Positions 4,366-61,989 of a stretch of 64,000 nucleotides of DNA are shown here, piece after piece. Where the stretch lies: contig CM057135.1 of NCBI GenBank assembly GCA_029964075.1, forward strand, positions 3,519,001 to 3,583,000, read 5' to 3'. The notes under the pieces were generated by a model. The model saw only the letters and a list, made by a program, of their open reading frames with translations. It was not told the origin of the DNA and did no database searches. A program made the translations under genes and the position numbers. Source of the stretch: Patiria pectinifera. Taxonomy: Eukaryota; Echinodermata; Asteroidea; Valvatida; Asterinidae. Within the stretch, counting starts at the first letter, position 1; every line of letters starts with the position of its first letter.

Positions 4366-4511
4366 CTCTATGTTCCGACACCCCTATGTTCCGACAACCT
4401 AGATTCTGTTACTCCCGGTTAGGGTTAGGGTTAGGGGTAGGGTTAGGGTTAGGGGTAGGGTTAGGAATAGGAATATGTGCAGTCGGAACATAGGGGTGTC
4501 GGAACATAGAG
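4366..4511. mobile_element. Small inverted-repeat element with telomere-like core
   Basis: Arms at 4366-4395 (plus) and 4482-4511 (minus) are near-identical inverted copies, each holding two CTATGTTCCGACA units. Between them, at about 4420-4465, are TTAGGG and TTAGGGG repeats. The inverted ends suggest a MITE or foldback with a telomere-like core rather than a plain telomere relic. Confidence 0.6.
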
Positions 4512-9261: not shown

Positions 9262-9596
9262 TTATTTACCGAGAATTCGAACTTGTAAGTTTTTCGATAA
9301 GAGATTTTTTCCTTTTGTCAGCTGTTCGTCTACCCGTTTTTTAACTTCTTTTTCAAAGTCTGAATCGTTTTTAATTTTTTGAAGCTTTGTGCTGGTCTTT
9401 GTTCTTTTTTTTTGCTTAAGCTCGTTACATTTTGCGAGCTCTCTCGTAATCAATAAAAACTCTTCGTGCGATATATCTCCGTCGTTGATGGCTTGAGACA
9501 CGTATTCTTCAATCGTGTTAAGTTTGGAGTCCGCTAATATTTTAATCTGGTCGTGCTTTTTCAGCTTGGCGGATAATCGCTTAGACGCGATTCTGA
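9262..9596 (-). pseudogene. 3' fragment of the hydrophobic Polinton gene, duplicated copy
   Basis: Encodes the C-terminal half only (SKLNTIEEYVSQAINDGDIS, then a Lys-rich coiled coil). It is truncated by the tandem-duplication junction at about 9596; residues upstream of the junction in the same frame are unrelated. The full copy is at 10,281-10,941. Confidence 0.7.
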
Positions 9597-9982
9597 CAGG
9601 TGAAGGTAAACTATAGAATATTACAACTGAGGTCACACGCAAATAGGTATGGAGCGCCGATGGTATGGATAGTATAAAATGAGCAAAAAGGTATGGAGCG
9701 CCAATCGTACATTTAATAAATAAAAAAAACCTTTATTTAACAAAATAAATCATTTATAATATATGAATCTTTTCCAGAGTGAACACACTGAGCTATCGGA
9801 TAAAACAGATCAATGCGATCACCAGATTTTTATCGAGAATGGATTCCTAATTTTTTAAACCTGCGGTGAAATAATATCACGTTACTTTGATTTTTCGGCA
9901 GAAAATGCTCAAGGACACATGTATCAATCGGTCTTTTCTAAAAAAAGAATCAAAAGACAAATATTAAGAAAACGTTTTTAGA

Positions 9983-15802: not shown

Positions 15803-15897
15803 ATTATTATCAACGTCTTTTATATTAAATAATATACATATTATTTAATTATATTATATCGACCATATACACGATAAAACCAAAATCGATAAAAAGG

Positions 15898-16410
15898 TAA
15901 TCAGAGATGGGCTTAAAAAACAAGCAATCTGGCAAATTTATCTACCGGGTCCTGCGTATGTACCCAGGCCTACGAGTACTTCGCTAGAGTTTGAAACACC
16001 AAACGATTTTCACCAAATGGATGTGCTATACCTACCCTGGGATAAAGTAAAACGCAAGACTGATAAATACGCTTTGACGGTTGTTGACGTTGCGAGTCGA
16101 TACCACGAAGCAGAACCTTTGGTTTCTGAAACGGCGGATTCCACCAGAGATGCTATCGTCAAGATTTACGCGAGAACTCCTTTGCGTTACCCTAAAACGT
16201 TGAGAGTAGACGCCGGTACCGAATTTAAAGGCGCTTTTAAACAATTGATGACCTCAAAAAAACGTCGAGATTATCGTCGGTGAACCTCGAAACCACAGAT
16301 CGCAGGGTATCGTAGAAAGATTTAATCGAACGCTAGCCGAGAGACTGTTTGGTCATCAGTACGCTCAAGAAGAGAGAGTAGAAACACGTAATGGGTCGAG
16401 CGATTACGAT
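15898..16410 (+). pseudogene. Polinton retrovirus-type integrase, truncated
   Basis: The core reads PRPTSTSLEF, HQMDVLYLPWDK (first catalytic D), YALTVVDVASRYHEAEP and TLRVDAGTEFKGAF (second catalytic D). An indel in an A-run at about 16,251 shifts frame; sense resumes at EIIVGEPRNH, QGIVERFNRTLAERLFG (catalytic E). The N-terminal zinc-binding region and everything after about 16,405 are missing. The enzyme would insert the element and create the 6-bp target duplication. It abuts the polymerase remnant tail to tail. Confidence 0.75.
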
Positions 16411-19144
16411 TAAATCGAGTACATTTTAGGCCTTATGCAAACGACTTCTTTGATTATTATACCTCCAAACTCGTCTGATTTACCAATCACTTTCTTATTG
16501 GTTGGATTGTACAAAGGATGATCCGTCGGATAATTCGAAAGGTCGTATTGTTGCCCGTTTTGCTGCATATCTTTGTATACGTCGTCCGTGTAGACGCTTA
16601 AGAGTAAACTGTCCGTGTCCGTATACGGTAATCTGACTCGGTCTCCATACGTCGCTTTTATTCGATTATAATAAAAATCGTACATCAGCGTCTTTGAGAG
16701 ATCTTAGATACTCACTCCGCAGTAGATTGATTTGTTTAACACGGTTTTAGTTTTGTACATTTCGACAAATGACAGATCGCATTCTTTGAAGATCGATGTC
16801 TGTTTGTAGTTTTGTTTAGACACTATCATTTCGTATCTTTTATGCTCATCCTCTCTGAGTAACTTCGCATCCATTCTATTTCTAACGTCTTCCATTGTTT
16901 TTCCAAAAACGTTATTATTTATGAGTTTAAAAAAATCTTTTTCAAAATTAAAGGTCGCTTGAGTTCTGAGTTGAGTGTTTTTATCGATGTACACCTTCAT
17001 CCAAGGCTTCTGTTTAAACCCTAAGACGCGATGTACTTTTTTTTTTAGTTTTAATCCAAGCTCGATATAAAGCGCGATGTAGTGCGAAACGTACTTGCGT
17101 TTGGGTTTTAGCGTGCCGGTTAATTTGGGTACTTTGCTACTTGGCTCTGTCGACAACAGATTTCGTTGATACTCCGACAGGTCGGTCTCGGGTATAACTG
17201 TGTTTTCCGGTGCTAGCGGGTAATCGTTGTGCCAATCGTGAAGAGCAGCTAGATAATCAAGGTCTACCTCTAAAAAATAGCCCGTTTCTGACGTTTTCTC
17301 GATCGACATGATATACTCGGTTTAAAATTCCTGAGGCTTTAACCACTTGAAACGTTTGTACGGCAAGTACTGACTCATAGCCCAACCGTATAGGTTATTA
17401 GCGTCTAGATACGTCTTAGTAAATGTTTGTCTACGTCTTGCAATAAATCGAGTTCTATCTGAGAGTGTTTTAACAGCGCATCCCACGATAACCCGGGTGC
17501 GGTAAAATAATTAGCCGGATCTAACTTATAATTCTTTTTACACACACGTCTAAAATTCTCAAACACGCCGGCTAGTAATAACGTGTCGGTAGTCACGTAT
17601 AAGTCGTGATATTCGCCCAAGTTTTTTTTACCTTAAACTCTTTCCAAACTCGTCGTAATCTGTCATAGTCTTCTTGTGATATCCCTTCGTCTTTTAGACT
17701 GCTGTAAAACTGTTCGATTGGTGGTAGACTGGTCTCTTCTAATTTATCAAACGAGTCCATATATTCGTAAGGGTAAACTCCTTTTTGTAGTAAAAGGTCT
17801 AAAGTCTCTGAATTTTTAAAATGTTCTCTCAGTAAAGTAAACGACTCTTTTGGACAAGCTTTAACTAAGTTGTCAAGCGATGACGCCAAATGACGTAGAT
17901 TTCCGATAAAAAACGAAATGTACTCTGCTGAGTATGTACCAGTGACGTGCCAGTGATCTCTCACCTTTCTAAATTTGTTAATCTTCTTTTTGCAGTCGAG
18001 ACATTTAGACTCGATAAATTCCTTACTATTTTCGTACTGATATTCTTTTATTTGTTTTGTTGTCTTGGGTTCTTTGGGTTTCTGGCACTGACAGTTGCTC
18101 GAGTAATTGGTATAAATTGGTTTTTCGCAATTCCAACACGCGTTTGTTTTTTTCACGATGTTTTTATCTCGCTTAGTAAATTCCATGGGTATGGGATCGT
18201 GAAATATCCAATTAATATCGCACTGTAATTTTAACATCTTCTTTACAAACTTAGTTGTGGCGTCTTTGCCCTTGTAAGTTTCTCGATACATATTTTCGCC
18301 ATCACATCTAACGACTACCAACGAATAACCGCTTGCTTTGTGAATGTTTGTCTTTTGCGTGTTTTCCTTTATATTGTGCGGAGTTTTTTCTAGTACCGAT
18401 TCAAAGTCTGCGTAAATGACAAATGGTGCGTCCTGTGCAAATGTGTTTTTTAAATTTTAATACGTTGTTCTCGGGAAAAACGACTTTAAACGGAGGCTTG
18501 TCTATTACCTCACAATCTTGTTTGTGTCTGTCTGTCGTTCCGTAGTGTGACAGACATCTTCGACAGAAATATTTCTTGTGTCGATCTGCCGTTGCGGTAT
18601 AGAATGATCTAGAAAATTGTTTTATCCAACAGTTGTGACTTGTATCACCGTCGGAAAACAACAACAGATCGATAGCCTCAACGTTAGGATCTGTGTTTTT
18701 AGATAATGCCAATACATGTATGTTATCTTGTTCAGTATAACCAAAATCGTTGATCGATAGATTATTTTGTCTTTCTACCCTAGACATTTGATCCACTGGT
18801 GTGGGAAAATCTATATTTTCGAATTTCAATCCATCGTTCGTGTTGTATATCGTAGTTCTCTCTTTGTGGATCTGATATTTTGGGTGGTTTTCGATTCGCT
18901 TTTTTACTTTGTCCGAATAGTTACCAAGAGCGGCTCTCAAATACCATCTCAAACATTCGTTGTCTTTGTTTTGTACGTTGATTATCGCCTTTTTATTTTT
19001 TAGATAGTCGGGTAGCTCTATGTAAGAACTACCTCCTGCTTGAGCATAACGGTTTACGTTAATGTAAAACACGAGTATTTTATCGACTACCCAACCTGAT
19101 CCTCGATTTGTATGACTCGTGTGTTTTTCTTTTACTTGATCCAT
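16410..19144 (-). pseudogene. Protein-primed family B DNA polymerase of the Polinton
   Basis: Pieces in order from the N-terminus: GSGWVVDKI and KKAIINVQNKDNECLRWYL (19.1-18.9 kb); CxxC cluster FCRRCLSHYG; exonuclease motif YADFES at about 18,400 after a frameshift; FTAPGLSWDALLKHSQIEL (17.5 kb); motif A YLDANNLYGWAMSQ (17.38 kb); GKTMEDVRNR (16.9 kb); motif C YTDTDS (16.62 kb). About 35 residues before motif A and the region after RPKMYSI are deleted; at least four other breaks exist. The enzyme would replicate the linear element from a terminal protein. Clearly dead. Confidence 0.8.
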
Positions 19145-19378
19145 CGCTTCTTTGAGAATTTGCTTTACCTGACTCCCCTATAACCATATTATTACTGTTA
19201 AAGGTAAATTCATCAGTCACCCGTTCTCCATCAGGTACATTTTTAACGTAATCACTGTAATCGCAATCTGAAGCTTCATGTTAGTGAGTTCTCTAAGTTC
19301 TGATACGACTTTGCTGTCGATCTGCCGCTCGTAAGTGTATCAAAAACAGTTCAACGTCATTATTAAACCGTCTCGGAA
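19145..19378 (-). other. Degenerate upstream part of the polymerase gene
   Basis: Minus-strand frames keep fragments such as NDVELFLIHLRAADRQ and DGERVTDEFTFNSNN, which resemble the region just before the polymerase start. The frames are broken by stops. Confidence 0.4.
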
Positions 19379-23558: not shown

Positions 23559-25039
23559 TTAACGGAGTTGTCCATAGAATTTGACATGGCGCTGCGCAAG
23601 GCAGACGCAAACATCAGCAATTTGCGAAAACAAGTCCCTGTTATTTCTATATCGCCCCTGCATTATGCGGTATGTCTTTAAATGTCGGATGGCGTGTTCA
23701 ATAGCCACTCGAGCAGATGCATGTTCTTTGTTAAACATTTTCCTCCTGTATCGTTCCTCACCACGAAGTTGATTTGCCTTCCAGGGAGTTAAGAGCGGCT
23801 CCTCATTGGGATAAATCCTGTCAGCCAGCAAGTATGTTCCCTCCAGAAGATGAAGACGACGCTGGTGGCCTATCTCAGGGAGGAGGCGATACTGTGCAGC
23901 ATCGTTCGTGTGTCCAAGGAAACCGGACTAAGAAGAAAAAGAAGACCTCATTTATAATAAGGTGTAAATAATGTATGTTTATGATTCCTGCGCGCCTAAC
24001 TTGCGGTGATTAATCTACAGCTGATGAATAATTTGCCTTTATTTGGCGTTTGTATAGTTACAGTGCACAACTGATGTGTTAGTATTTTTTTACGATGTAA
24101 TACAATATAGTGATTGTCATACAATCCAGTGTGTATTCCCAAAGTCATTGTTATATTGGTATTTATGTTAAAAAAAAAGTCAATAATTATGTTGTGAACC
24201 AATTATGTGTTCTTTATTTATTTTGCGCTATGATAACGGCAATAAATGTTACTTACATGCAGGTATCTTATATTTCCCTTCGAATCAGCTATTATCTGTG
24301 TTTGAAGGCAGTGTCGATGACGATGACCACTGTAGTACAGGTGTTGGTCATCTTCAGGTGTGAATATTTCATGCGACGTCCCATCTATGGTTCCAACTCC
24401 ATTCGGAAATGTGGCCCACATAACGTTCCGCATTGAGTTCCAAACGGCTTCGTTCGGCCACCGTATTTCCCCCGTCAAAGCATCCCATAGCACTCCCGTC
24501 ACTGTCTTCGTTATCCTTTGGGCGGTCGATTCGCTGACATCAAAGAGTACGGATAAAGAGTTAAAGTCCTGGTACTTTCGTAGCCATATCAGTGTAAGTA
24601 ACAGTCGGTTGTTGGCATCGAGGAGTCTTTTCCTCCTCCTCCCATCAATATTTTCCCTTTCCTCCTCTTGCAATGCTGTCCCGACAAACGCCAAAAGGTT
24701 GCCAAATGACTCCACCGTTTCCCCTGTCTCCATCCAAAAGGACTTTGGTTGGCGAATCAGAGTCGTGTAGACATCCCGTCCGTTGAAATTGTTCAAAGGC
24801 CCCGTAAAAACGAGTTCATAGAACGTAGGTGGAGGCACATTCGGCATTGGCATACCAACATCTAGTGCCGATAATATATCGACAATTCCTGTCTTAGAAC
24901 CTGAATCAAGTGGCGGAGGAAGGCTACTCGCACAAGCAGCCAACACACCCCTGACCCTTCGCATATCCATGTTTACAATCAACCTGAATTCGAAGTACTG
25001 TTGTTGGAAAATGTTGTTCGAACCCCTGATCCCGGACAT
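23559..25039 (-). CDS. PIF/Harbinger-type DDE transposase (two exons)
   Basis: Exon 1 is 25,039-24,257 and exon 2 is 23,927-23,559. The donor is CAT|GTAAGT and the acceptor TTCTTAG, phase 0. The protein is about 385 residues. Order: N-terminal region; helix-turn-helix-like SLSVLFDVSESTAQRITKTV; VGTIDGTSHEIF (first D); SGFLGHTNDAAQYRLLP (second D); LLADRIYPNEEPLLTPW; ARVAIEHAIRHLK (catalytic E). These match the DDE_Tnp_4 nuclease used by PIF/Harbinger. The enzyme would cut at the long terminal repeats. No frame damage is visible. A downstream in-frame Met at NMDMRRVRG is an alternative start. Confidence 0.8.
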
Positions 25040-25250
25040 ATACGTCTACATAGCCACATGTACTGTACATGTACAAATGTACATTCATTTTCACGCATCA
25101 GCGTCTAAGGCCCGCCAAGTCCCTCCCATTGCGTTTTTCCTTTGTTATCGGCAATGTACACAATATACGGGACAGCCAATCAGATGCCAAGTTAGGGTAC
25201 GTAAGGTAGTCTACTCCCAACCACACCTATTCCTATTATAATTCCGAAAA

Positions 25251-26289: not shown

Positions 26290-29043
26290 TGACGTCATCG
26301 ACTAATTTATTATAGATTTTGAATATTTAATTTTTCCCATAGACTTTGTACACAGAAATAAAAAAAAATTGTAGATTTTCAACGGGCATTTTTGACTCTG
26401 CCCCAGTAATTCATTTGCACCAATCTTTGTCCAAGCAAAGACCCTAATTCAAACAACACTGTGTAATGATGACGTCATGATAACGTCATCCGGTGTGTTT
26501 TTATAGGCAATTAAATTGTGACACTTGTAATATTTAAAAATGCATAAGAAATTAACTGTTCGCGTCCGCAGCATTCTGTTACCGGCAAGTGGTAGAATAG
26601 GTTGAGGTCTTTATTTCATTCAGTGTGCGTGAAATCACGTGACCCTTGCTTCTGGTCGAAAAAGGCCAAAACCGGAAGCGGCTTATTATTTGAAAATGGT
26701 AATAGATACAAACTTGCTTTCAACGGTGTTAGTCTCTTGGCTAAAAGTATTCTTCAAATCATCTACCAATGACGTCATGCAATCTTCGAGTGCCCTCTAG
26801 CGACAGGCTGAAAATTTGCAAAAATGTATTTTGAATAGATGTCTGTGGCGGAGTTTGTCAGAATCGCCTAAATATTGGTGTATATGATGACCTTGACCCA
26901 CTTAAGACGTGTGCGAAGTTTTAGGCGAATGACGTGATCAGACCGGAAGTAATAATACGAAGACCCTTTTTCATTTGAACATTCCTGAAATATCAACCAT
27001 GGCAGTTTTTATGTTAGTTTTTACTTTAGTTGTCGATTAAAGGGTAGGTCTCAAACATTTCAAGCTTCGAGGCAATAAGCGAACTCGGACATGCCCTGCG
27101 CACGCTTGAAACTTCAGGTTGACAATACCTCTGCTCTACAACATGCACAGAACATCTATATGTACATACACGTACGTTACGCACATACATCGTATGTCAG
27201 TCAGCCTGCAGAGCACGTGTTGCCGAGGTCAAATCCTGTTCACGTCACAGTGACCATTTTAGCCGATTTTCGGCTAACTTTGACAAATTTTTATGTTCAT
27301 GCATGCGCTTAGTCAGGGACGTATAATAAAAGATCATAATGCCGAAAAGCCCTATGTTACGTATTTAAAGGTGTAGTTTTTCTGCAGTGGGATTTTCCAC
27401 AAGTCTTTTCCTATACAACACTGATATCTTACTGAGTAGTTCTGAACTCCAGCCGAGAATTACTATGAGAAGGAAAGAGAAATCGTATTTTTTTTCGCGC
27501 TGTCATTCTATTGAACATATTCCTAAGGGTCAGAATATCAAGTAATATTTCATAAAAATGTTTCAGTTCAAAGGCAAATTACAAATTTAAAGGTTCAATT
27601 TTTCTGCAGTGGGATTCTTGTTTAGCCCGTTAACTGTGTACACGTTTTCAAGCCATCATTTCTATAACTTGGCGATCTGGAATCGTCATCAATGTTACAG
27701 CCAAGGAAGACCCTCATACAAAAATTATGCCAAGACTATGACGTCATGATGACGTCATCACCTAATTTCTTTATTGATTTTTGAAAAAATTTACGTGCAT
27801 ATTATGAAGTCCTATATCTACAGAACTGTTAGTTTGAATAGGTTGAAACTTGGTATGTGGCTAGACCGGGATGTGTTATAGGTAAAAAAAAATTAGGTGA
27901 CGCCATGATGACGTCATTCGGAGATTTTATATGAATATTTGAAGTTTTTGGCCTTTTAGCCATATCTCATGAACGTAACATGCAAAATTCAAAATTCTTT
28001 GTGTATTTGGTTTGTTAGGTAAAAGGTATTTGCACAAAATTAAAAAAAAAAATATCTGACATCATTATGACGTCATAAAAATGCGATTTTTCAAAATACA
28101 TGTAAGGAAAGGTCTGACTGTCATGAAACTTAGCGGGTAGGTAAATAATGGTACTAGTATACAAAGTTTAAAGTGACGTCACGATGACGTCATGGTTTGG
28201 TTTTTATAATTTTTAGATATTTATAATTTTATTCTGCTTTCACAAATTGAACACTTTCTTTCATCGGATTGACATTAAACTTGGTTCAAACCAAAATCAC
28301 AATGACAAAATGTGCATTGAGAAGGGTCTTAAGGATGACGTCATTGCAGTGCAAGTGGCATCATTTGATAAAATTATACTTTAGGAATTATTCTAAGCGT
28401 TTTGAACAACCTTTAAATGCATGAAGCAAAATCTACAGAACTACAGGTCTGATTGGGTTGAAACTTGGTATGTACCTAAACGGGGATGTGTTATAGATGA
28501 CTGCATGTAAGTTTGACTCTAAAAATTGGAGGGAAAAAACCCGAAAAAAAGGCTTAGAAATTGACCACAAGCGTGTGGCATGTGGAGAAAATTCAACTTT
28601 TTCCAAATACGGTGGGTAATACTGCCAAAACATCCCCTTCCAGTGCATGCTTCAGACACATGTGATTGCATTGGTTTTAAAAACCGATTTTTGGCATTTT
28701 GCCTTTTGTTGACTTCCGCCAATGCCATCGTAGATTGCTCTCCGTTTCCTTTATTTTGTAAACACCCCTATACAGTTATAATTGAGCACATTAATACGAA
28801 CTAAGCCCGCATCGCCGGCTTGGAGGGGTAATGAATAAAATAAATCACTACAAGGAAACTCTTTACAATTTATAACTGGGGAGAAACCTTGAATGAAGAC
28901 CTGCAGCAATTGGAGTTTTACGTAACATTAAATGGCCATTAACCTATTATATGGTCTGTCTGCAGCACAATACTATCCAATTTGGTTGTAGCTTGGTATG
29001 AACCTAAGCCGGCATGTCGTATACATAAATCCAACTGACGTCA
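26290..29043. repeat. Gene-free region with eleven TGACGTCA palindromes
   Basis: Perfect octamers start at 26290, 26470, 26770, 27739, 27750, 27909, 28068, 28174, 28185, 28336 and 29036. Several occur in pairs as TGACGTCATGATGACGTCA-like doublets about 11 bp apart. Sentences such as GAAACTTGGTATGT recur between them (27,847, 28,450, related at 28,990), so this is a decayed family of roughly 150-600 bp units rather than independent sites. The octamer is the CREB/ATF consensus. No gene is visible from 25,600 to 30,900. Confidence 0.7.
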
Positions 29044-29398
29044 TTATGACGTCTTGACATGACATCTCACTCGCATTAAAGCTGCATTTTCTACAGCCTA
29101 TAAATCTACATTTGCATTTTCTTTTTACTACACCTGCATTACCTATCAGTCTGTAACATAATGCCAAAACAGCCCTATGTTTGTCCACAAACATATGTCT
29201 AGTTAAAAATCGAAATTATTTTGTGAGCAGAAAATCAACCCGGCTATAGTATGACTGCTAAATAGCACAAAATCGTTAAATTCGGTACCTTCAGAGGTTT
29301 GGTTATCTAAAAATCATGGTAATTCGTCAAAGAATGCAGACGGTTTTGAGCAAGCATGGCGTCTCTGATATTTACCAGACTGTTTCCCGGCCACCCTA

Positions 29399-29708
29399 AT
29401 AATAGTCAAGAGGCCAAAGGGGTCAGGGAACCAAACAAGAGCTTTAATCATCTACTGAGCGTGCGTCAACTTTGGCAAAGCGCACCGCGGCTGTTGCCTG
29501 TCATTCCAAAATCTTTGGCGGGTGCAATATGCGACCGCGGATGTAGAGCGCACACAAAAGGGTGCGCTTCACTGCAGAGGGCTTCAACGATTTTGGAATG
29601 ACAGGTAACAGCCGCGGTGCGCTTTGCCAAAGTTGCCGCACGCTTAGTAGATGATTAAAGCTCTTGTCTGGTTTCTGGACCCTTTGGCCTTTCTGACTAT
29701 TCGTCACC
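29399..29708. mobile_element. Foldback/MITE with about 110-bp arms
   Basis: Arms 29,399-29,514 and 29,594-29,708 are inverted copies (GCGCACCGCGGCTGTTGCCT, GAGCTTTAATCATCTACT) separated by about 80 bp. Ends extend to AATAGTCA/TGACTATT. Any transcript would fold into a long hairpin. No coding sequence. Confidence 0.75.
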
Positions 29709-30026
29709 GTTTTCACGAAGAGACAAAAGTGTCAAAAAATCGTCCGATTTTCGATTTTTCCAATTTTATACTATAGGCTTAAGTTTACTGAGATCTACCA
29801 TTTCGCAGGATTTGAAGTTTGGAAAGTGATTATTTGGCGGGAAAATGAAGATTTTGAAAAGGTTAAAAGTGGCCAGAGTGCATTTTTGGTTTTCACGAAG
29901 AGCTACACTTGACATTGCCTCTTCGTGAAAACGCTGCAGCAACGCACAGCGTTTCCACGCAGAGCGAAAATGCATTTATACCATGTGATGTTACGCGGCA
30001 CAGAAAGAAATCGTTTTCACGAAGAG
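29709..30026. repeat. Dispersed GTTTTCACGAAGAG motif
   Basis: The 14-mer occurs exactly at 29,709, 29,889 and 30,013, inverted at 29,919-29,932, and once degenerate at about 29,950. The second and third copies face each other. Confidence 0.6.
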
Positions 30027-30984
30027 AGAACATTCTACGCGCGTTGTCTGCTTTACCGTTGTCAAGGTAAAAATAAACCTCCTTCTCTGGTGCGTATTAA
30101 ATATGAGCTTTGTTTTTTTCTCACACGCCAGATCCAGAGAACGAGTGCAATACGCGCGTCCGTAGCACAGCAGCAATAATCGCGCGCCTCGAGGTAGATG
30201 AGCTTGGTGATCTAGCTCTTACATCATGCACGGCAGTTCCACATTGCATAGTGCGCACGTAAAAAAAAGGTCTGTAATGTGTTGGTTCGGGTTTTGTTAA
30301 CTCCAATGATGGATTATGATGCCCGTGACGTCACACAACATGGCGCCTTACATGTACCGAGAAAAGGCGTATATGTTTCGTCCCAATAATTGTCAAAATA
30401 AGACAATTTAAGGATACCCTTTACAAAAATTAATGACAGACACCAACTTGGAGTGATGTTTTCTTTAAGAAATGAATGAAAAAAAGGGCTATAATTTACA
30501 TCCAATTATTCATTTCGGGGAATTTTCGCTAAAGTTTTTGCCGTGCGCGGTGAATTTTGTTCGAGCAGCGAGGACTTTCAAAAATCCTTACAGAAAAGTA
30601 AAAACACATTTTCACAAGAAATCTTAATGCTTATTTGATAAATATATAAATAAACTAAACAATACATACTTGTTCTTTGTTGGGTCGACAGTTTTAATTG
30701 AAATACAGACGCTGAAAGTAACGCTTCATTTCCCGCGCTTCGCGGAGAATTTGGACTGCTGGATCGCTGGTTCACGGTTTAGCATGCCACTTGTACATAC
30801 AAACTGGCCCGCGGGTACCAGGTGGCCTAGCGACTTTCGCGCGGTACTCAAATTTGTTGACATACATGTACATATGTATTGGAGGGTTCGGTTTTTGAAA
30901 AGTAAAACAGTTAACCCTCATTTGTCATTTACTTCATTATGAGTTTCCGATTTCATGAAATATCGCTTGGGAAAATCTGTAGAA

Positions 30985-33900
30985 TTTTACCGAAAGGCTT
31001 CATCCGAGAGTAGTAAAACAGAAACGAAAACCACTTTCCTGCAGCAGTGCTCGCAAGGAAATAGCGCATGTATTTGGAGTCAGTACGTGGAACGATAGAC
31101 CCGACCAGCATCCAGCCTTCCTGTGTGAGAGGTGTTCAAGAAACATCAGACACTTTACTGGAGGCACCCGGGATATCGGTGTCGACAAATTGCTCGTGAA
31201 CCAGAAAATACAATCCGAGTGGCCTCCCCACAAACGAACAGGTGAATGCTTTGTGTGTGAGCTTGCTACTAAACAGGGGAAAGGGGGTAGAGCCAGAGGC
31301 CGCAAAATAAGACGGTTGTATACTTCAGGGGCTTCTTGTGAAACGGTGCAAGCGACACTATCCCCATTCAGCTACACAGATGCCAACATTTTTGAGCATT
31401 TGGACGGAGTATCAAGTAGGCCTAGCGTACAAGTGCCCACAAGTTTGGACTTGCTAAATGACAGGGGAGAGGGGAGTATTTTTGTCTGCGCAATATGCCA
31501 GTGTATCTTAAGCCAACCCAGTGTGCAAACACCTTGCGAGCACAATTTTTGTGCAGTCTGTCTCACAGAATATTTCCAACATTCGAAGAGCCCATCTGTG
31601 AAGTGCCCAGTATGTAATAACATGATCAGTTATGGGCAAATCACAAGAAAGTCCAGGTGTATTAACTGTACAGCTAGACAACGTGCTGGTCACTTGCTGC
31701 AAGTGTCAAACAATTGGGAAATTGGAACGGATCATCAGTCACGCATGTGAGCCAACCCATCAACAAACTCCCAAATTCAAAATAGTTCGGGCTGCAAAAT
31801 CGCCATCGAAACAAGAAGCAGACACAGAGAGGCAAAAAATAAGTTCAGCAGCCAAAATTCTCCAAGACTGGGCTAATCAGTATCACCATGGAGACCCTAT
31901 ACCCCCTATTGTGGAGGATGTAGCTGACAACTGGATTTGGCTGCAGCTGAAACGCGACAATAATGTAGCAGCTATCAAAACTGGTGGTCGGGTAAGACTT
32001 TGTTTTGACAACAAATCAGGTGTTTACATTAATGTCTACCAATTAAAATACTTCTATACAATGGATAGTAAAACTCACAACAACCATTTCTCACTATCAT
32101 TTATTTTTAAACAAGAAAATGGCATTTCTCTGGAAATCGGGAATACTTTAAATTTCTTCTAAAACTGTACATTAAAAAAATATATTACTGTCTTTACATA
32201 CATAAACATGTTAAAATCACAAGCAGCTCTAAAATTATGGCTATGGAATGCATAATTTAAGTGCTTTCAGAACATATCGTAATTCAGGTTCATTTCTTTG
32301 TTAACAGCCTGCATACATACAGCGACAAGTTATGTCTAAGAAACCATCTAATACATCTCCTGAAGCAGGCAAACACAGCCGTCAATTGACAACAGAAGAG
32401 TCGCTCATAATGATGCGAGACTGCAAACTTTCATGGAATCAGCTGAGGAAGTTAAGAAGGTGAAGTATAAGTCTTGTTGTTCAATATAATCAAAAATATG
32501 AATTAGGGATGGTGCTGCTTTTCAATTGACCACTTTAAATTCAGTTGTGGTGATTGCAATTCAAATATTGGAAGTTTGCTTTAAAAATGACAGATACATG
32601 AACGACAAGAACAGTATCCCATCTGAGCGAGCATTGAGGACGCAACAGAAACTGCTGCTCAAGGATTACCTTCAAGGCGAGATGACTGACCTTGTTTTCA
32701 ACAGCGAAAAAGCTGAGGGGATTAAGGGTTTCACAACTAGATCTGTGCCATTTGCATTTGTTGGAGACCTCAAAGAGATAGTATTAGATTACTTGGATCG
32801 ACACCAAAGGTGAGAGTTTACAAATAACTCTGCACATTTATGCCAGACACTTTAGTCTTTCATGATAAAATATTACATGTACGTGTATCCGAGTAATACT
32901 TTTAACTTCTCTTTCCAAAGAAATGACACCTTGACTTGGCATCAAGGAGTTATTCCTGAAGATGAGGTATGGGTGAAGGTTGGAGGGGACAAGGGCGGTT
33001 CTTCGTTCAAGATGGCCTTCCAGATTGCAAACATCGAACATCCAAACTCCCTGAGTAACACGGTGGTGTTTGCATGCTTCGAAGCGAAGGATTCTCTTGC
33101 AAACATCCTACGGGTCCTTCCACCAATCTTCCAACAAATCGCGAAGCTGGGATCTGCGAAGTGCCAGTAAGCAGGTTTTACTTTCTATATAAATGGTGGC
33201 ATAAAAAAAGAAGATAAGAGTTATAGAAACATACACAGCCGCATCATATTCAGGTTGTGGTCCCTGCCAAGTGCCAACATCCGCCACACATACATGTACA
33301 TATAACAATAACTATTTTAAAATTTTCTATTTTTTTTCCAATTTCTAGAGAGGAGTCGATTCGTTTGTTTTGCTTCGGCGACTACGAGTTACTGACCAAG
33401 TTATATGGCATATGTGGATGCAATGGTAAGGTTTCACAAGAGACATCAAGATGTAATATAGCCCATATTTGTTTACCAAAGATATAAATTGTATGATGAA
33501 CTCACCAGATGCTTGAATGTTGAAGGCATTCATCACTTCCAGATTTGAGGTGTGATGTGGTTGTTCATTTGCATTGCTTGTCAGAAGCAAATCTGTGGAA
33601 TACAAAAACTTCACATTATTAGAAATTATAACGCCAACATTTATATCTTGCAGCTCGCTACTGCTGCTTGTATTGCACAGCTACCAAAGCCCAAATGCAG
33701 GAGCCTCGATCCGAGAGAGGGGCATATCCCTCACGTACAATGCAAACCATCGAGGACAATTACCAACGCTTTGTACAAGATGGAGGGCTCCAGCAAAGAG
33801 CAAAAGATGTCTCAAACAGCATCGTCCATCGACCACTTATGCCTGTTGAGATCAGCCATGTAAGTTCTTGCATAGCTAAATAGGATTTTTGTAAGAGAAT

Positions 33901-34085
33901 ATACTTAGAACATTGAACTGTTTGATGAATAATCAACCTTTTTTTCTAATCACATATAGGTCGTCCTGCCAACACTTCACATATCGCTTGGCGTATACAA
34001 GAAGTTATTCGATGCCTTCGAAAGTGCATGTCACGGGATCGACGTGCAGTTGTTCCAGCTCCCATACATGTGCATGTACAAAATG
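30985..34085 (+). pseudogene. RAG1-like transposase gene (seven exons, 3' end missing)
   Basis: Exons: about 30,985-31,991; 32,308-32,459; 32,594-32,809; 32,921-33,166; 33,349-33,425; 33,654-33,859; 33,960-about 34,085. All introns are GT..AG and phases agree. Exon 1: HPAFLCERCSRNI, then WPPHKRTGECFVC, a RING finger (CAICQCILSQ, CEHNFCAVCL, CPVC) and VTCCKC...ISHAC, the order seen in the RAG1 N-terminal half. Exon 2 has LTTEESLIMMRDCKLSWNQL. Exons 4-6 have GGDKGGSSF...HPNS...FEAKDS, FGDYELLTKLYG and CLYCTAT, resembling the RAG1 core around its first two catalytic Asp and CxxC zinc site. Exon 7 has LPTLHISLGVYKKLFDAF. A frameshift at about 31,640 splits exon 1, there is no clear ATG, and the catalytic Glu region is absent. 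Molluscan N-RAG-TP is the closest described type I recall. Confidence 0.7.
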
Positions 34086-35190
34086 TACACGCGACATGAC
34101 ATAACACATCAGAAGAAATGTAGGCTCCACACATCTACTACCGGTACTGTATATGTTAACGTGTTTTGTTTTGTACATACATGTAGATGTATTTCACCAC
34201 GTATGGCTTTGTACGCCAAGTGTGCATGTCAAAAATTGTCATGTCAAATCAGACTTGTATTTAAATCATCAAGAATCGAGTCAGAGTCATTGCTCCCGAG
34301 TCTGAGTGCCAAGTCATGTGGGGCGAATCTGAGTCCGAGTCGCGTCCAAGTCATGTTTAATATTGAAAATAAATTTGGAGGTAGGCCTACTACTGTACTA
34401 GTAAATCTCACAGTATATAAATGCTTCCAATATTTTCACAGCCACTCTCTAATAAATACATGTACATGTACATGCAGGCAAGCCAGTGTTTGGAAATGAA
34501 TATCGTACCGAACACTATCAAGCTTGCATGATTAACCCAATATTGAGTGAAGACGATGGGGTTCATGTTTTTGATATTGATTTTCGAAATCGCTACACAA
34601 TGTATGTAATGATATTGTTGAAAGAGATATTTAATAAGTGATTTGTTATGTGAATTAAGTCCCACTTCGGCTTTATGCAGGTCAAGTCTCCGAGTTGAAA
34701 TCTTTATACTCAAAGTCTGAGTCTTTATGTCGAGTCTGAGTCCAGGTCTATCTAAATTAGGGTCTAGTAGTATGATGTATTTAAATGTTGGCCTAGGGCA
34801 AGGCCTAAATAAAATGTACCACTTTTAGTAAATCACCACATGGAAAATTGTGCAGTTACTTTTGAAAAATCAGACTAGTGATTGTATTGAATAAAATTGC
34901 ATTGACCCTTTGATAGCAAATGTTTCAGTTGGTTACGATTTCTTTTCTGGGCAGTATTATGTATAACTCTGACATGTTCATACATACACGAGTCGTTGCG
35001 TAGTTTCAAAATACGTGCATTCGGGGATCAGTCAATGCGCCTACCCTACGACTGTTTTATGTACGATAATATGTCCGTGTACAGGCGTTGAAAAAACTTG
35101 AGTGGGTCGCCTATGCTTGCCTTCCTCCATGGCATTTCAAAACGTAAGATTACAAAAATTGCTTCCTAGTACAAAAGATACATAACCTGT
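34086..35190. repeat. Gene-free stretch with GAGTC repeats
   Basis: Irregular GAGTCTGAGTC/GAGTCCGAGTC words at about 34,275-34,350 and 34,685-34,750, and TACATGTACATGTA-type runs. They start where the RAG1-like gene fades. No exon with the missing RAG1-like C-terminus could be read here. Confidence 0.5.
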
Positions 35191-35194
35191 GTAC

Positions 35195-35400
35195 TCACCT
35201 TAGAGATTCCCGTCGGAAACCCTCAAATCGTGCCAAACACCGCCACCCAAATACTGTCTCGGCCGTGACGCGCATGCAGACATGGCGGTCATGGCGGCGG
35301 TTCTCGACGGACTCCTGTTTATGTACCCTAAAGTTTGGCTGAAATTTCACGAAAGCGACTTGTCCCAGTGCTGTCGTCCACATTAATGTGAACAACAATT
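35195..35400 (-). other. CpG-rich segment, possible first exon
   Basis: A minus-strand frame (start near 35,398) ends at GAATCTCTAAG|GTGAGT, a consensus splice donor, and the segment is CpG-rich unlike its surroundings. The encoded peptide (TALGQVAFVKFQPNF, VCMRVTAETVFGWRC) matches nothing I know. It may be a 5' exon or promoter of a minus-strand gene; weak. Confidence 0.2.
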
Positions 35401-36234
35401 ACTCATTAATTCATATATCGACCAAATAACTTCACAAAACTGCTTTTCAATTTGAAAAATGATGCTTTATTCGTAGCTGAAATGACAACATGAAACTACA
35501 AAATCATACCGAACGCGAATAACACGAGCTCATGTCGCGTACGTAAAAGCATGCTAGTCAGAAATTGTGCACAAAGGATGGGGAGAGTCGATTGCACATA
35601 GCTTCATTGATGCTTATCGAAGCCTTATTTGGTAGCTTTTGCATATTCATGTCCTCAAACCAATCATATTTTACATTATCCGCGGGGTATTTAAATCCAC
35701 CAACGCAAAGACAGGATCTTCGCGCGGGCATGCATTATGCATCGCGCTCTGTTGTGAAGCGTCGTCACGTGACTTTACCACTAACTATAACTCGCCAAAA
35801 GAGGGCGTACTTTTGTATCAGTGAAACTGCCGTGCATGCCGCCGTCTTCTTCACCCTGCTGACTAACAATTAAGGTAACATTTAAATAAAGCTTTTTTCT
35901 CCCGAATCGTCCTGAAAAGTCGTGCTTCAACTTTTATTAGGCCTAGTAGTAGTACTGTATCAGTTGAGTCAGGACTGCAAACTGGGATTGTAACCGGACA
36001 TGTCATGTACTCGTGCAATATCATTCATTCAATGAACAAAACTAAGTACAGAAAAGCTCGAGGCTACACGGCCGATCATGCAGGTACTGGCCTGGCTCCT
36101 TATAATTTATCTCATTTACCAAACTAGTTGGCGACATTTAGCACATACAGGTATTTAGATAGAGGACAGGGTTTTGAATTGTTTAAGGAAATGTGTGTGT
36201 AAATGTCGATGTTCATTGTTTGGTGTGATCATTA

Positions 36235-36940
36235 GCCCAGGTTGGACTCCGTCGTTGTGTCCGTTGTGTACACGCAACAGAGTCCAGGGTATGATAAACC
36301 TCTCCTGCCATAACGAAAACAATTATAAAAGATTTTTTTCATATTTCTACCTGACTGAGGAAGCTGAAATTTCGCTTGCATATTCCTTGTGTCCTGAATT
36401 GTGCATGCGCTGCATGGGTTTACTGACCGGAACATACTGACCGGAGCATACTGACCGGAACGTCGAGTTTATACCTCTGGTTCTCTTCAGAACCATTCTC
36501 TTAGTTGAGAAACTATTCGCACATGGTGTTTCCGCAAACCCTTCATTATTTAGTATCTCCACCATGCAAAGCCTCAAATCTTACTTGCATGGGTTTAGAA
36601 AAGGCAAATATGTCCGGGGTGTCGTGCTTACCGAAAATAAACCGCAACCCCACGCTTTCGTTAAAAAACATTTTCAGTACGAACTCCCCGTGTGAAGATT
36701 ATGCGCGCGCGTGCATGCACACCTAGCACGCGGCAGCAGCAAGCCGCAGCAAACGGCTTCACGGTTGGAGTTTGTGCTGAAAATGTTTTCAACGAAAATT
36801 GCGGTTTATTTTCGGTAAACACACCGGACATAGGTAAAAATATGAAAAAAAAGTTTATAATTTTTTTTCCCCGCTATGGTGGTACAATTTATGCTCTGGA
36901 CGTCAGTCGTAATGCAATAAAGACGTCGTTCAACCTGGGC
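36235..36940. mobile_element. Foldback element of about 0.7 kb
   Basis: Outer inverted pair GCCCAGGTTGGACTCCGTCG / GACGTCGTTCAACCTGGGC (36,236 and 36,920). Inner inverted blocks 36,598-36,690 and 36,757-36,835 share ACCGAAAATAAACCGCAA and AACATTTTCAG. The right half is closer to intact; the left half is split by a later insertion (36,423-36,585). Confidence 0.65.
36423..36585. mobile_element. SINE-like 163-bp insertion with a 12-bp target duplication
   Basis: Flanked by direct TGCATGGGTTTA copies at 36,411-36,422 and 36,586-36,597. It contains three ACTGACCGGA(A/G)C repeats and a CTTAGTTGAGAAACTATTCG / CATGGTGTTTCCGCAAACC segment also found at 39,040-39,230. A long variable target duplication suggests LINE-type retroposition. 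Confidence 0.6.
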
Positions 36941-36949
36941 TAGTGTGAT

Positions 36950-38320
36950 CATGGACATGGTGAGTTGTAGTACACAATCAGTCGATGGGGCCGACTACTA
37001 CATGTAGTACTATCAGTAGCATTATTACATGATTTTTAATTTTTTGTTAAATATGGCCAAACTATACATCAAATTAAAGCTCTGGATGGGAAAACTCAAT
37101 GGTGCAAACAACATTGCCATAGGTGCTCCGTTCAGAAGTTATGTCCTCCCAAAGACACCATACTCCTGGAACTCTTCTGGTCCTCATCCGAGTTAATGTA
37201 TTTGTTAACTTAGAACCGACCATACTATTTAGTTTTGGTTCAAATATAGTCAAACTATACATCAAATTAAAGCGCTTGATAAGAAAAATTAAATGGTGCA
37301 AACGTCATTGTCATAAATGCTTCCGTTCAGAAGTTATGTTTTTCCAAAGACACCATTATTACTCGTGAAACTATTCTGATTGTGTGTGTGTTTTTTATTT
37401 ATGTAACCAGGGTGGAGCAGCATCTACTGAGGAGAAAGTGATGCAGCCAGATATTCCCTTATCAGCATCCCAATTCCTATGCCCCCCCTCCCCGCTTTTT
37501 CTGCATAAGATGGAGGAGGAATTTATAATGTAACCTTATTGATCTTCAATGATTAGGTGTCCTTTTTGAAGATCTTCCTGCAGCTTGTATTTGTAGACTG
37601 CGTGCGGGGACTCCTCATACACAATGTTAAACCAGTCGGGAAAACCTGGCACCCGAGACAAAAAATGTGATTTTCCAAATATTACAAGACCATCAAACTT
37701 TCAAACACAGTAAATAAGTACCAACAACTGAAATAACCAAAGATATTTTCATAAAAATATAAATTTTCTTGCGCATTAGAAATTGTTAAGCAGAATTAAA
37801 TATTGAATGGTGGGATGAAGTATGAAATAAAACAGAAGAATGCTGTTATCATAAACTCAATTCTCAGTAAAAAAAAAAAAAAAAAAGCTAGTATATAACA
37901 TCGAAATCAAGACTTGTTAGTACAGAACAAGATAATCAACATTTGATTGATAATTCTCAAAAACAGTTGTATTGTTGGAAAATATTCTGCAACTAAAACA
38001 GTGCTAAAATTCATGCAAGTTCAAGGTCATTTTTAAATGAAAAGCACTCAGAAGTGATTGTCACCATGCGGGCATTCACATTTGAAGTTCCTGATGAACA
38101 AGTATGATGTTCAAAACCAAATTGTACAATGGGGTAATCATGCATAGTTGAAGTCAAGTACTTTGCAAGTATCAGCTTTACTGCCAGACCTCAAGACGGT
38201 TTGGTACGGATGAAGATGCATTATACAGATATTGGTGTTGTTTTTCAATTTTTGTTGACAACAAACAGCTCAATGTTTGGTGTTAAATTACTTGGAAAGT
38301 ACTTGACTACAACTAAATCA
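36950..38320. other. Gene-free stretch
   Basis: Two diverged direct copies of a segment with CAAACTATACATCAAATTAA and GTTCAGAAGTTATG lie at about 37,055-37,160 and 37,245-37,350. An A-run occurs at 37,869. No gene is visible. Confidence 0.5.
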
Positions 38321-43150: not shown

Positions 43151-43735
43151 TGCCAAAAGATCATTAATAGCCGCGTGTTTTCATCATGTCGTTCGATTAG
43201 ACAAAGAACGAGTTGGAGATTTATTAAAAGTGACTCAAAATCAATTTAATATAGCCTTAAAAAGATACGATGACCACTACAATAAAGGCGGGGCTGAGGG
43301 TGTAGCCCTAAGAGGTGAAATAGAGGTAAAACTCGGTGGATCGCTTTCATAATGTTTATTTACCGAGAATTTGAACTTGTAAGTTTTTCGATAAGAGATT
43401 TTTTTTCTTTTGCCAGCCGTTCGTCTACCCGTTTTTTAACTTCTTTTTCAAAGTCTGTATCGTTTTTAATTTTTTGAAGCTTTGTGCTGGTCTTTGTTCT
43501 AATTTTTTGCTTAAGCTCGTTAAATTTTGCGAGCTCTCTCGTAATCAGTAAGAACTCTTCGTGCGATATATCTCCGTCGTTGATGGCTTGAGACACGTAT
43601 TCTTCAATCGTGTTAAGTTTGGAGTCCGCTAATATTTTAATCTGGTCGTGCTTTTTCAGCTTGGCGGATAATCGCTTAGACGCGATTCTAAGCAGAATAT
43701 CTACACCAAAAGCGCCCATAAACGTTCCATCTACA
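43147..43735. mobile_element. Second Polinton fragment
   Basis: Closely matches 10,074-10,660 of the Polinton: the 3' part of the small plus-strand gene (43,147-43,325) and the C-terminal half of the minus-strand hydrophobic protein (43,360-43,735). Both ends are abrupt, so this is an isolated piece, not a whole element. It does not carry the T-run frameshift of the main copy, so it did not derive from that copy after it decayed. Confidence 0.8.
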
Positions 43736-43815
43736 CTCTCAGAACGTTGGTTAAAATATTTAACCAACTTGGTTAAAATTTTAACCAACCATGTATTAAC
43801 AGGTGAACAGCCCAA
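43360..43815 (-). pseudogene. Truncated hydrophobic Polinton protein, undamaged C-terminal half
   Basis: The open frame reads through GAFGVDILLRIASKRLSAKL, KHDQIKILADSKLNTIEEYV and the Lys-rich helix without the frameshift seen at 10,575. The C-terminus differs slightly (EKLTSSNSR instead of VQVRILGK). Residues upstream of about 43,735 come from the adjoining TTAACC repeat, not from the gene. Confidence 0.7.
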
Positions 43816-44095
43816 CAGTTGGTTAGACCGTTAACCAACCGAGGTTGGTTACAAGTTAACAAGTGGTTGGTTAAAAGATTTAACCAACTGCTGGTTAATT
43901 TCACTTTACCCAACCCGTTGGGTAATTATTAATTGGGCAAATGTTAACCATTTGTTGGTTATAACCTCATTGTTGGGCAATTAATTTTAACCAACTGTTA
44001 TTTATCTTTTAAGCACTTATTGGATACAATTATTTGTTTTACAACTCAATAATTGGGTAATCTTTAACCAACAGTTGGTTAATAAGGAATCTTGC
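43736..44095. repeat. TTGGTTAA/TTAACCAA palindrome field
   Basis: About 360 bp with more than a dozen TTAACC or GGTTAA words arranged as nested palindromes (for example TTGGTTAAAATTTTAACCAA, spaced AACCAACxGTTGGTTA forms). Variants with CCCAAC/GTTGGG alternate. The region is strongly self-complementary. Confidence 0.75.
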
Positions 44096-45492: not shown

Positions 45493-46757
45493 CAGGGTGT
45501 GTAAAAGAAAAGCTGATCCAAAACGTATGGGTCAATAATCAAACCGTCCCAGCTGTGATCGGTGCGTTAAAAGGGGTTTGTTAGAGATATAGTGGTTCAT
45601 AAAATGTTCATGATAATGTTGTCCATAATGATTTATCATTCCAGAGATTGTGCTTATCAAAATGCCAAACACTTAGTTCGTCAAAGTTTACCGATTCAAG
45701 GCAAATAAAAGCTGCCCAAAAAGTGTGCAGTTGCAGTTGATTATGTGTTGTATGGGAGGGTTATGACAATGACATGTTGAAAGTGTTTGAGCATAAATGG
45801 ATCACAATTTCGTGATTAAAATTACTCACTTAAACGATTTTTGTTTACTCAGAAAAACAAAAGTAATGCCAAAATCTACTCAAAACTTAGCTTGGGCGTT
45901 GGCCCACTTTGGCATGGCTTTGACATGGCCATTGCAAGCTATTTTAAAAATATTTTTGAAATGTCATTGCTGGTTTGTGATGAAAAACAAACTCTTTGAA
46001 AGGATTACTTATTTATTGACAACATATCAGTGTAATAGTACTTGTACTCGGTACTCATACCCGAGTACTACTCGTACCATTTTTAGAGTACTCATCATAC
46101 TCATACTTGAATGTCAAAGTGCTTGAATGTCAAATGCAAAGTACTAATGTACTAGAACTGACGGGCAGCAAAGTACTTGAAATCGACTTTTTCAAATTTG
46201 GCAACCTAATGACTCGTACTCTGCAACCTAATGACTCGTACTCTGCAACCTAATAACTCGTACTCTGCAACCTAATGACTCGTACTCGGCAACCTAATGA
46301 CTCGTACTCGGCAACCTAATGACTCGTACTCGGCAACCTAATGACTCGTACTCTGCAACCTAATGACTCGTACTCTGCAACCTAATGACTCGTACTCTGC
46401 AACCTAATGACTCGTACTCTGCAACCTAATGACTCGTACTCGGCAACCTAATGACTCGTACTCGGCAACCTAATGACTCGTACTCGGCAACCTAATGACT
46501 CGTACTCGGCAACCTAATGACTCGTACTCGGCAACCTAATGACTCGTACTCGGCAACCTAATGAAATTTTTGTTCGACCTTTATATTGCAAGCAACGGTA
46601 CTCAATCATCTCACTAGAAGTGCAATTATGGTATCAATAAAAAGCTAATCAACTCCCCTTTAAAATGGAACCACTTTGACATAGTAAATGTCTTAACTTT
46701 TACACAACTGCCCATTGTTTTTGGACAACCCGTACATGCTTTTTTGGATACACCCTG
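45493..46757. mobile_element. TA-flanked non-autonomous DNA element
   Basis: The ends are inverted: CAGGGTGTGTAAAAG at left and the complement of GGATACACCCTG at right, each bordered by TA (45,491-45,492; 46,758-46,759) inside a TACATGTA-like context. TA duplication suggests a Tc1/mariner-like family. No transposase is seen; the longest internal frame (45,797-46,126) has no motif. A similar single end (TACAGGGCGAGTAAAAAAG) lies at 51,466. The 22-bp array is inside. Confidence 0.55.
46201..46564. repeat. 22-bp tandem array, about 16.5 copies
   Basis: Unit GCAACCTAATGACTCGTACT(C)(T/G), differing mainly at one position (CTCTGC or CTCGGC) that is arranged in blocks. There are no spacers, so it is not a CRISPR array. 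The GACTCGTACTC half resembles GTACTCG repeats at 46,040-46,160 and 52,575-52,720. Confidence 0.95.
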
Positions 46758-61766: not shown

Positions 61767-61989
61767 TTGAACTAACACAAAACTGATCCAGCAATCCATT
61801 GCATCAACCAGTATCAACGTGGTGAGTCTCACACTCGTTGAATAGAACGTTTCTTTTGAAGAAATAATCGGAAAGCAGAACTGTAAATCCATACCGTAAC
61901 TGGTCAACGTGAACTCTGTTACACCAACGCTGTACAGAACATTATCTCGACAGTTTCACAGTGCTTGTTGAATATCGCTATCGTAAAGC

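Follow-up and report, generated by a model that had tools for sequence, protein, structure and literature searches.

In a 64,000-nucleotide stretch of the genome of the starfish Patiria pectinifera (contig CM057135.1 of assembly GCA_029964075.1; hereafter the window, within which all positions are counted), a spliced gene resembling RAG1 raises the question of whether one transposon protein can combine an N-terminus of RAG1 type with a RAG1-like DDE core, as a preliminary description of the locus had proposed. Our analysis places this gene in an element of 5606 bp (30229-35834), bounded by 14-bp inverted repeats with 13 identical positions and by a CATG duplication, which we read, with a probability of about 93%, as the decayed remnant, in an echinoderm, of an autonomous cut-and-paste DNA transposon of Chapaev type. 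Joining of the proposed exons gave a gene of seven exons spanning 30939-34061 on the plus strand, whose six introns all have GT-AG borders and, as had been proposed, keep phase, and whose exons 2-7 are stop-free as far as homology reaches; the final piece of exon 1 in this joined reading is 31626-31991. The motifs are GGDKGG at 32982-32999, PNS at 33042, FEAKDS at 33078, GDYELL at 33377, CLYC at 33665-33676 and LPTLHIS at 33966, and those that had been named beforehand sit exactly where they had been put, together with both catalytic Asp codons (32988 and 33380). The limits of the gene were revised at either end: it had been started at 30985, and the start codon agreeing with relatives is the ATG at 30939 (MSFRFH; MTMSFKFH in the starfish protein P0001 and MSFKFH in P0029); it had been extended to 34085, and homology to P0001 already ends around 34061-34067, close to residue 726 of its 1025, with the C-terminal third missing. 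In two relatives, P0009 and P0029, the unspliced predictions leave the homology at the last residue of exon 1, with intron-like residues after GGR; this suggests a first intron whose position is shared.

The Pfam results showed a match of the core to DUF1280 (PF06918; 1.4e-22, 80.9 bits with a cut-off of 25), a RING (PF00097; 3.7e-7) and RAG1_imp_bd (PF12560; 3.5e-4), the last at 20.7 bits and thus just short of its cut-off of 23.3. The 1025-residue P0001 matched at 1.8e-190, and the C(2)C (CLYC) and LH (LPTLHIS) motifs of Chapaev are both present. Chapaev DNA transposons with a Chapa domain and a RING were reportedly described by Kapitonov and Jurka in 2007. Set beside published Chapaev elements by profiles and descriptions, the gene belongs, on sequence grounds, to Chapaev/DUF1280 with Chapa domain and RING. 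In a first protein search, 25 relatives were retrieved at E<=0.01, from starfish, sea urchins, an acorn worm, amphioxus and a coral, together with two proteins that carry an scpid label and others. A second search, which used an amphioxus protein as query and scored the 7996 candidates with most words in common, gave 94 relatives at E<=1e-5 and added by name Hydra, Ptychodera and the sponges Ephydatia muelleri and Sycon ciliatum, so that relatives of varying completeness come from starfish, sea urchins, acorn worms, amphioxus, cnidarians and sponges. Two alignments were made from these proteins: A1, of 22 of the 25 relatives in the first search, and A2, of 58 of the 117 proteins fetched, picked by length and spread. 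In A2 the column of the first catalytic Asp holds D in 57 of 58 relatives and that of the second in all 58, and each Cys column of the CxxC holds C in 55. The 333-residue core of the window copy shares 64% identity with a Patiria protein over 275 residues, 78% with one of Acanthaster (190 residues) and 56% with Asterias (309 residues). A maximum-likelihood tree of 96 of 118 rows, each covering at least 230 of 322 reference positions (P0005 and P0006 were excluded) and rooted at the midpoint for drawing only, grouped the window copy, with full support, with two Patiria proteins (P0002, P0003), three from Asterias (P0001, P0027, P0028) and the sea urchin P0004, a placement that by itself makes a sea star the most likely host.

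Precomputed RAG1_imp_bd and/or RING matches accompany DUF1280 in 10 of the 25 relatives of the first search and 15 of the 94 of the second, with P0015 counted in both; the remaining relatives have DUF1280 and no precomputed N-terminal match, some being short and others possibly without the domain. The proteins named as sponge, P0045 and P0072 (Ephydatia) and P0104 (Sycon), have DUF1280 alone among precomputed domains. P0077, labelled Em0001g867a, has RAG1_imp_bd and DUF1280 and groups with Ephydatia P0045 on a short branch (support 100/100). The two proteins with the scpid label, which we take to denote the sponge Sycon ciliatum, are P0010 (RAG1_imp_bd and DUF1280, with a RING recognised by eye) and P0012 (RAG1_imp_bd, RING and DUF1280). 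The presence in sponges of members with the full architecture is probable and no stronger, since it depends on P0077, P0010 and P0012, which are assigned to sponges by their labels and, for P0077, by its grouping with P0045.

The kinship with RAG1 was next considered for each half of the protein. For the N-terminal half, the A1 profile matched RAG1 in the PDB at 1.4e-31, with an alignment that runs through the N-terminal zinc region, the RING and the following finger, and the best other RING protein scored 1.1e-13; as a search query A1 retrieved just five proteins. For the core, the A1 profile gave collinear segments to RAG1 that stayed below threshold, and A2 gave no RAG1 core match, its best RAG1 E being 0.065; most of the N-terminal RAG1 match is lost in A2 because its N-terminal columns are mostly gaps. 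The predicted fold of the P0001 core, in contrast, matched RAG1 strongly, with RAG1 and BbRAGL as top matches, so that the RAG1-like core suggested beforehand is borne out by this model and the union of both parts in one transposon protein stands. The comparison was made at the level of the whole fold, without superposition of single residues; identity to RAG1 in the structural alignments listed is 14-16%, and the aligned RAG1 ranges begin at 459 or later, which would leave the RAG1 nonamer-binding domain outside the fold match. In the P0001 model the D-D-E residues and the zinc site are predicted to fall within a RAG1-type fold, and long helices separate LH from the H(4)H pair. The sub-threshold A1 alignment sets D607, C626/C629, H948/H953 and E974 opposite core residues of RAG1, presumably D708, C727/C730, H937/H942 and E962 by our count, and leaves D600 uncovered. 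By its predicted fold, then, the Chapaev core is RAG1-like; that Chapaev is the nearest kin of RAG1 after Transib does not follow.

We then examined the ends of the element. The inverted-repeat search paired 30225-30242 with 35821-35838, one of 62 pairs, 25 of which were listed. The repeats of this single copy begin 5'-CAC and finish GTG-3', as in Chapaev, and the 4-bp duplication fits the 3- to 4-bp target-site duplications of that group; CAC/GTG ends and duplications of this length are given as Chapaev hallmarks (PMC4079192). Comparison of 27931-30930 with 34071-37070 for repeats that start with CAC and are flanked by a 4-bp duplication gave this one pair alone, and by the same criterion no pair with a 5-bp duplication was found in these flanks. 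None of 300 Markov-generated flank pairs had a CAC-starting 14-bp repeat (<=1 mismatch) with a matching 4-bp flank, and when the flank was disregarded, such repeats averaged 0.01 in 100 flank pairs. End-like sites in the window are the two ends and one site with two mismatches at 61946; at least three matches were seen in 1 of 100 shuffles. The assignment of the termini is strong but not final, because the test was set post hoc, CATG looks common and the gene lies between the arms of four weaker pairs as well. As a separate observation, a long hairpin at 29401-29701 (117-nt arms, 88% complementary, 67-nt spacer) lies just upstream of the element and is perhaps a miniature inverted-repeat element of its own.

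The copy in the window is decayed. Exon 1 does show, as had been described, the zinc region in RAG1 order, the RING and the finger, but it is not one open frame: tblastn with P0001 followed it in frame 3 (30933-30986), frame 2 (30995-31663) and frame 3 again (31653-31991), which puts one frameshift between 30986 and 30995 and another near 31650-31663 and leaves the C..C..H finger out of frame with the RING. The C-terminal third, about 300 residues, was not found in the window with the C-terminal parts of six relatives (best E 0.39), and with it the H(4)H pair and the third acidic residue, the catalytic Glu, are absent. These residues are present in 54-55 of the 58 aligned relatives, the remainder being gapped there, and we read their loss as decay of this copy and not as a sign of another family. 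Six open reading frames (ORFs) in or near the 3' half of the element (34062-35820) gave no Pfam match. Since it has two frameshifts and lacks both the third acidic residue and the zinc His pair, the copy is non-functional and is ordinary transposon debris, which the enzyme of another copy may still be able to move.

Several points weigh against a Chapaev transposon with a RAG1-like core. The termini depend on one 14-bp pair from a single copy, and the test applied to them was framed after that pair had been seen; CATG is self-complementary and appears common in the window sequence; and among the 25 inverted-repeat pairs listed, four weaker ones (I11, I14, I17 and I24; 18-24 nt, 75-83% complementary) flank the gene too. 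The core has no significant sequence match to RAG1 or Transib with A1, A2 or Pfam, which is formally one of the two results that had been named beforehand as refuting the proposal, whereas the other, an unsuitable predicted fold, did not occur; the structure model is that of P0001 and not of the protein in the window; and the window copy itself is without the H(4)H pair and the Glu.

We weighed these points together with other explanations of the locus. The gene might be a host gene domesticated from a Chapaev transposase and here decayed or misassembled; several relatives are indeed long predicted genes, some with named isoforms, and the gene has six introns. We consider this very improbable, as the copy is flanked by terminal inverted repeats and a duplication, has frameshifts, has lost its C-terminal third and is surrounded by pieces of other mobile elements. 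Slightly less probable again is a genuine RAG1-like (RAGL/ProtoRAG) element of the type with RAG1L and RAG2L that sea urchins, starfish and oysters are known to carry, which would share the identical domain order and agree with the lead of RAG1 and BbRAGL among the fold matches; TransibSU elements are moreover stated to exist in the starfish Patiria (PMC4411706). The core is, however, that of Pfam DUF1280, and PF12940 was not found at E<=0.05 in any of the 22 relatives, in a scan whose 22 matching families were all listed; the 14-16% identity contrasts with more than 30% given for TransibSU, and the duplication is of 4 bp and not 5 as in the TransibSU example CCAGG (both PMC4411706). No RAG2-like domain was detected in the six ORFs in or near the 3' half, where a decayed or spliced gene could escape. 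The weakest idea, that a RING gene lies beside an unrelated DNA-transposon fragment and is linked to it by exon choice, could appeal to the frameshifts of exon 1, which keep the join from being directly open, and is refuted by the collinear alignment of P0001 residues 1-726 across the seven exons and by the architecture shared among relatives, in which N-terminal domain and/or RING co-occur with DUF1280 in the proportions given above.

As a decayed Chapaev element, the locus would once have encoded a transposase of about 1000 residues and RAG1-like build, with an N-terminal zinc-rich Chapa domain, a RING, a C..C..H finger and a predicted RAG1-fold catalytic core in that order. The intact enzyme would bind its own CAC-starting inverted repeats and cleave DNA through a D-D-E active site, set in an RNase H fold that a CxxC/HxxxxH zinc site stabilises, and its insertion would create the 4-bp duplication; by analogy with RAG1, the N-terminal zinc region and RING may bind DNA or protein and ligate ubiquitin. 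The analysis demonstrates the architecture, the fold predicted for a relative, the conserved residues, the likely termini and the decayed state of this copy; the cleavage chemistry, the RING activity and the past mobility of the element are inferred.

The element shares with Chapaev the Chapa-type zinc region, RING, DUF1280 core, CAC/GTG termini, 4-bp duplication and the C(2)C and LH motifs, and differs in its frameshifts, its missing C-terminal third and its sea-star host. With RAG1 and RAG1L (ProtoRAG, TransibSU) it has in common the order of N-terminal zinc region, RING, finger and catalytic core and, as modelled on P0001, the core fold and the D-D-E with a CxxC/HxxxxH zinc site; it differs in the low core identity, in the extra helices of the P0001 model between LH and H(4)H, and in that no RAG2 partner was seen in the six ORFs mentioned. 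The N-RAG-TP of Aplysia, reportedly described by Panchin and Moroz in 2008, likewise places a RAG1-like N-terminal region within a transposon. Compared by description only, it is unlike the present element in being made up wholly of the N-terminal-like part (PMC8355894); no mollusc was among the named matches of our protein searches, in which many matches are nameless. Canonical Transib, such as HzTransib, consists of the core domain alone (PMC4411706) and makes 5-bp duplications (PMC8355894), in contrast to 4 bp here. The CACTA/EnSpm and Mirage families (the CMC/CMCT clade) resemble the element in C(2)C and H(3-4)H, 5'-CA..TG-3' ends and 2-5 bp duplications; C(2)C and H(3-4)H are given as common to CACTA/Mirage families, RAG1, Transib and Chapaev, and RAG1 is there stated to originate from Transib (PMC12730594, 2025). 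The fold matches listed include no solved CACTA or Mirage transposase, so that they do not place Chapaev nearer to RAG1 than to these families. Elsewhere in the window, two overlapping minus-strand ORFs at 58794-60775 look by eye like a CACTA/Mirage-type transposase (GDNLGMHAML, PCRHC, HHLLH, RLEAKH), without a Pfam match at 0.01, and may represent another member of this large clade in the window.

The family had been presented as a new tie between the two halves of RAG1. This central idea is already in print, since Majorek et al. (2014; PMC3985635) identified DUF1280 as Chapaev transposases of the same clade as RAG1, and Kapitonov and Koonin (2015; PMC4411706) described the architecture of Chapa domain, RING and core and its tie to RAG1. 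A comparison of the whole Chapaev core with that of RAG1 was not found published, within a partial coverage of the literature that includes few subscription journals. New here are this copy, its likely ends, the probable sponge members and the whole-core fold comparison, and the analysis is of value because it confirms the idea by fold, gives the likely ends and shows how widely the architecture occurs, probably as far as sponges. The predicted structure of P0001 suggests that a family tagged "unknown function" in Pfam is built as RAG1 is, beginning with the first zinc region and ending with the last catalytic helix. Fold and taxonomic spread favour a single-protein origin of RAG1, and it is conceivable, at somewhat less than even odds, that a transposase with Chapa domain, RING, finger and RAG1-type fold was ancestral and arose early in animals, that RAG1 took both halves from one such protein and not by N-terminal fusion, and that N-RAG-TP is a truncated Chapaev. 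The first half of this idea was put forward in 2015 (PMC4411706), and the probable sponge members and the whole-core fold match lend it added support. Presence in sponges need not imply age, because Chapaev elements are known to move horizontally (PMC4079192), and this counts against the ancestral reading and slightly lowers its odds. The full-length Asterias amurensis protein is a candidate for bench testing.

Table 1. Features of the Chapaev-type element and its gene (window positions)
Feature	Position	Strand	Basis or remark
5' target-site duplication copy, CATG	30225-30228		Identical to 35835-35838
5' terminal inverted repeat, CACGGCAGTTCCAC	30229-30242	+	Pairs with 35821-35834, 13 of 14 identical
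Exon 1: N-terminal RAG1-like (Chapa) zinc region, RING, C..C..H finger; two frameshifts	30939-31991	+	tblastn with P0001, frames 3, 2, 3; PF00097 and PF12560
C3HC4 RING (CAIC...CPVC)	31487-31621	+	Inside exon 1
Exon 2	32308-32459	+	GT-AG, phase consistent; 3' part 72% identical to P0001 416-440
Exon 3 (DUF1280 core)	32594-32809	+	Splice borders, Pfam, tblastn with P0001
Exon 4, first catalytic Asp (codon 32988-32990)	32921-33166	+	
Exon 5, second catalytic Asp (codon 33380-33382)	33349-33425	+	
Exon 6, zinc CxxC (33665-33676)	33654-33859	+	
Exon 7, Chapaev LH motif (LPTLHISLG)	33960-34061	+	Homology terminates at its end
Interior without recognised coding sequence, expected place of C-terminal exons	34062-35820		
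3' terminal inverted repeat, CACGGCAGTTTCAC on the minus strand	35821-35834	-	Inverted-repeat search
3' target-site duplication copy, CATG	35835-35838		Matches 5' CATG
End sequence proposed for the element, CACGGCAGTTYCAC			

The window holds further repeats and mobile-element pieces. Polinton/Maverick-like pieces occupy 15849-19177, with an integrase core on the plus strand (PF00665, 8.5e-9) and minus-strand ORFs that resemble a protein-primed DNA polymerase by eye, two of which were scanned without a Pfam match. Retrotransposon ORFs were found at 62062-63999 on the plus strand, with a reverse transcriptase (PF00078, 1.4e-23), and at 3-1806 on the minus strand, gag/protease-like by eye. Harbinger-like transposase pieces lie at 23562-25045 on the minus strand, where the ORF at 24221-25045 matches HTH_Tnp_4 (8.2e-9) and, under its cut-off, DDE_Tnp_4 (1e-4). 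Two minus-strand ORFs about 34 kb apart, 9265-9732 and 43363-43830, share a near-identical protein stretch (RIASKRLSAKLKKHDQIKILADSKLNTIEEYVSQAINDGDISHEE...) and represent a repeated gene. In addition, there is a short GGTTAG array of 8.2 copies, a telomere-like unit, at 4417-4465, and a 22-bp satellite of 16.6 copies with 98% matches at 46200-46564.
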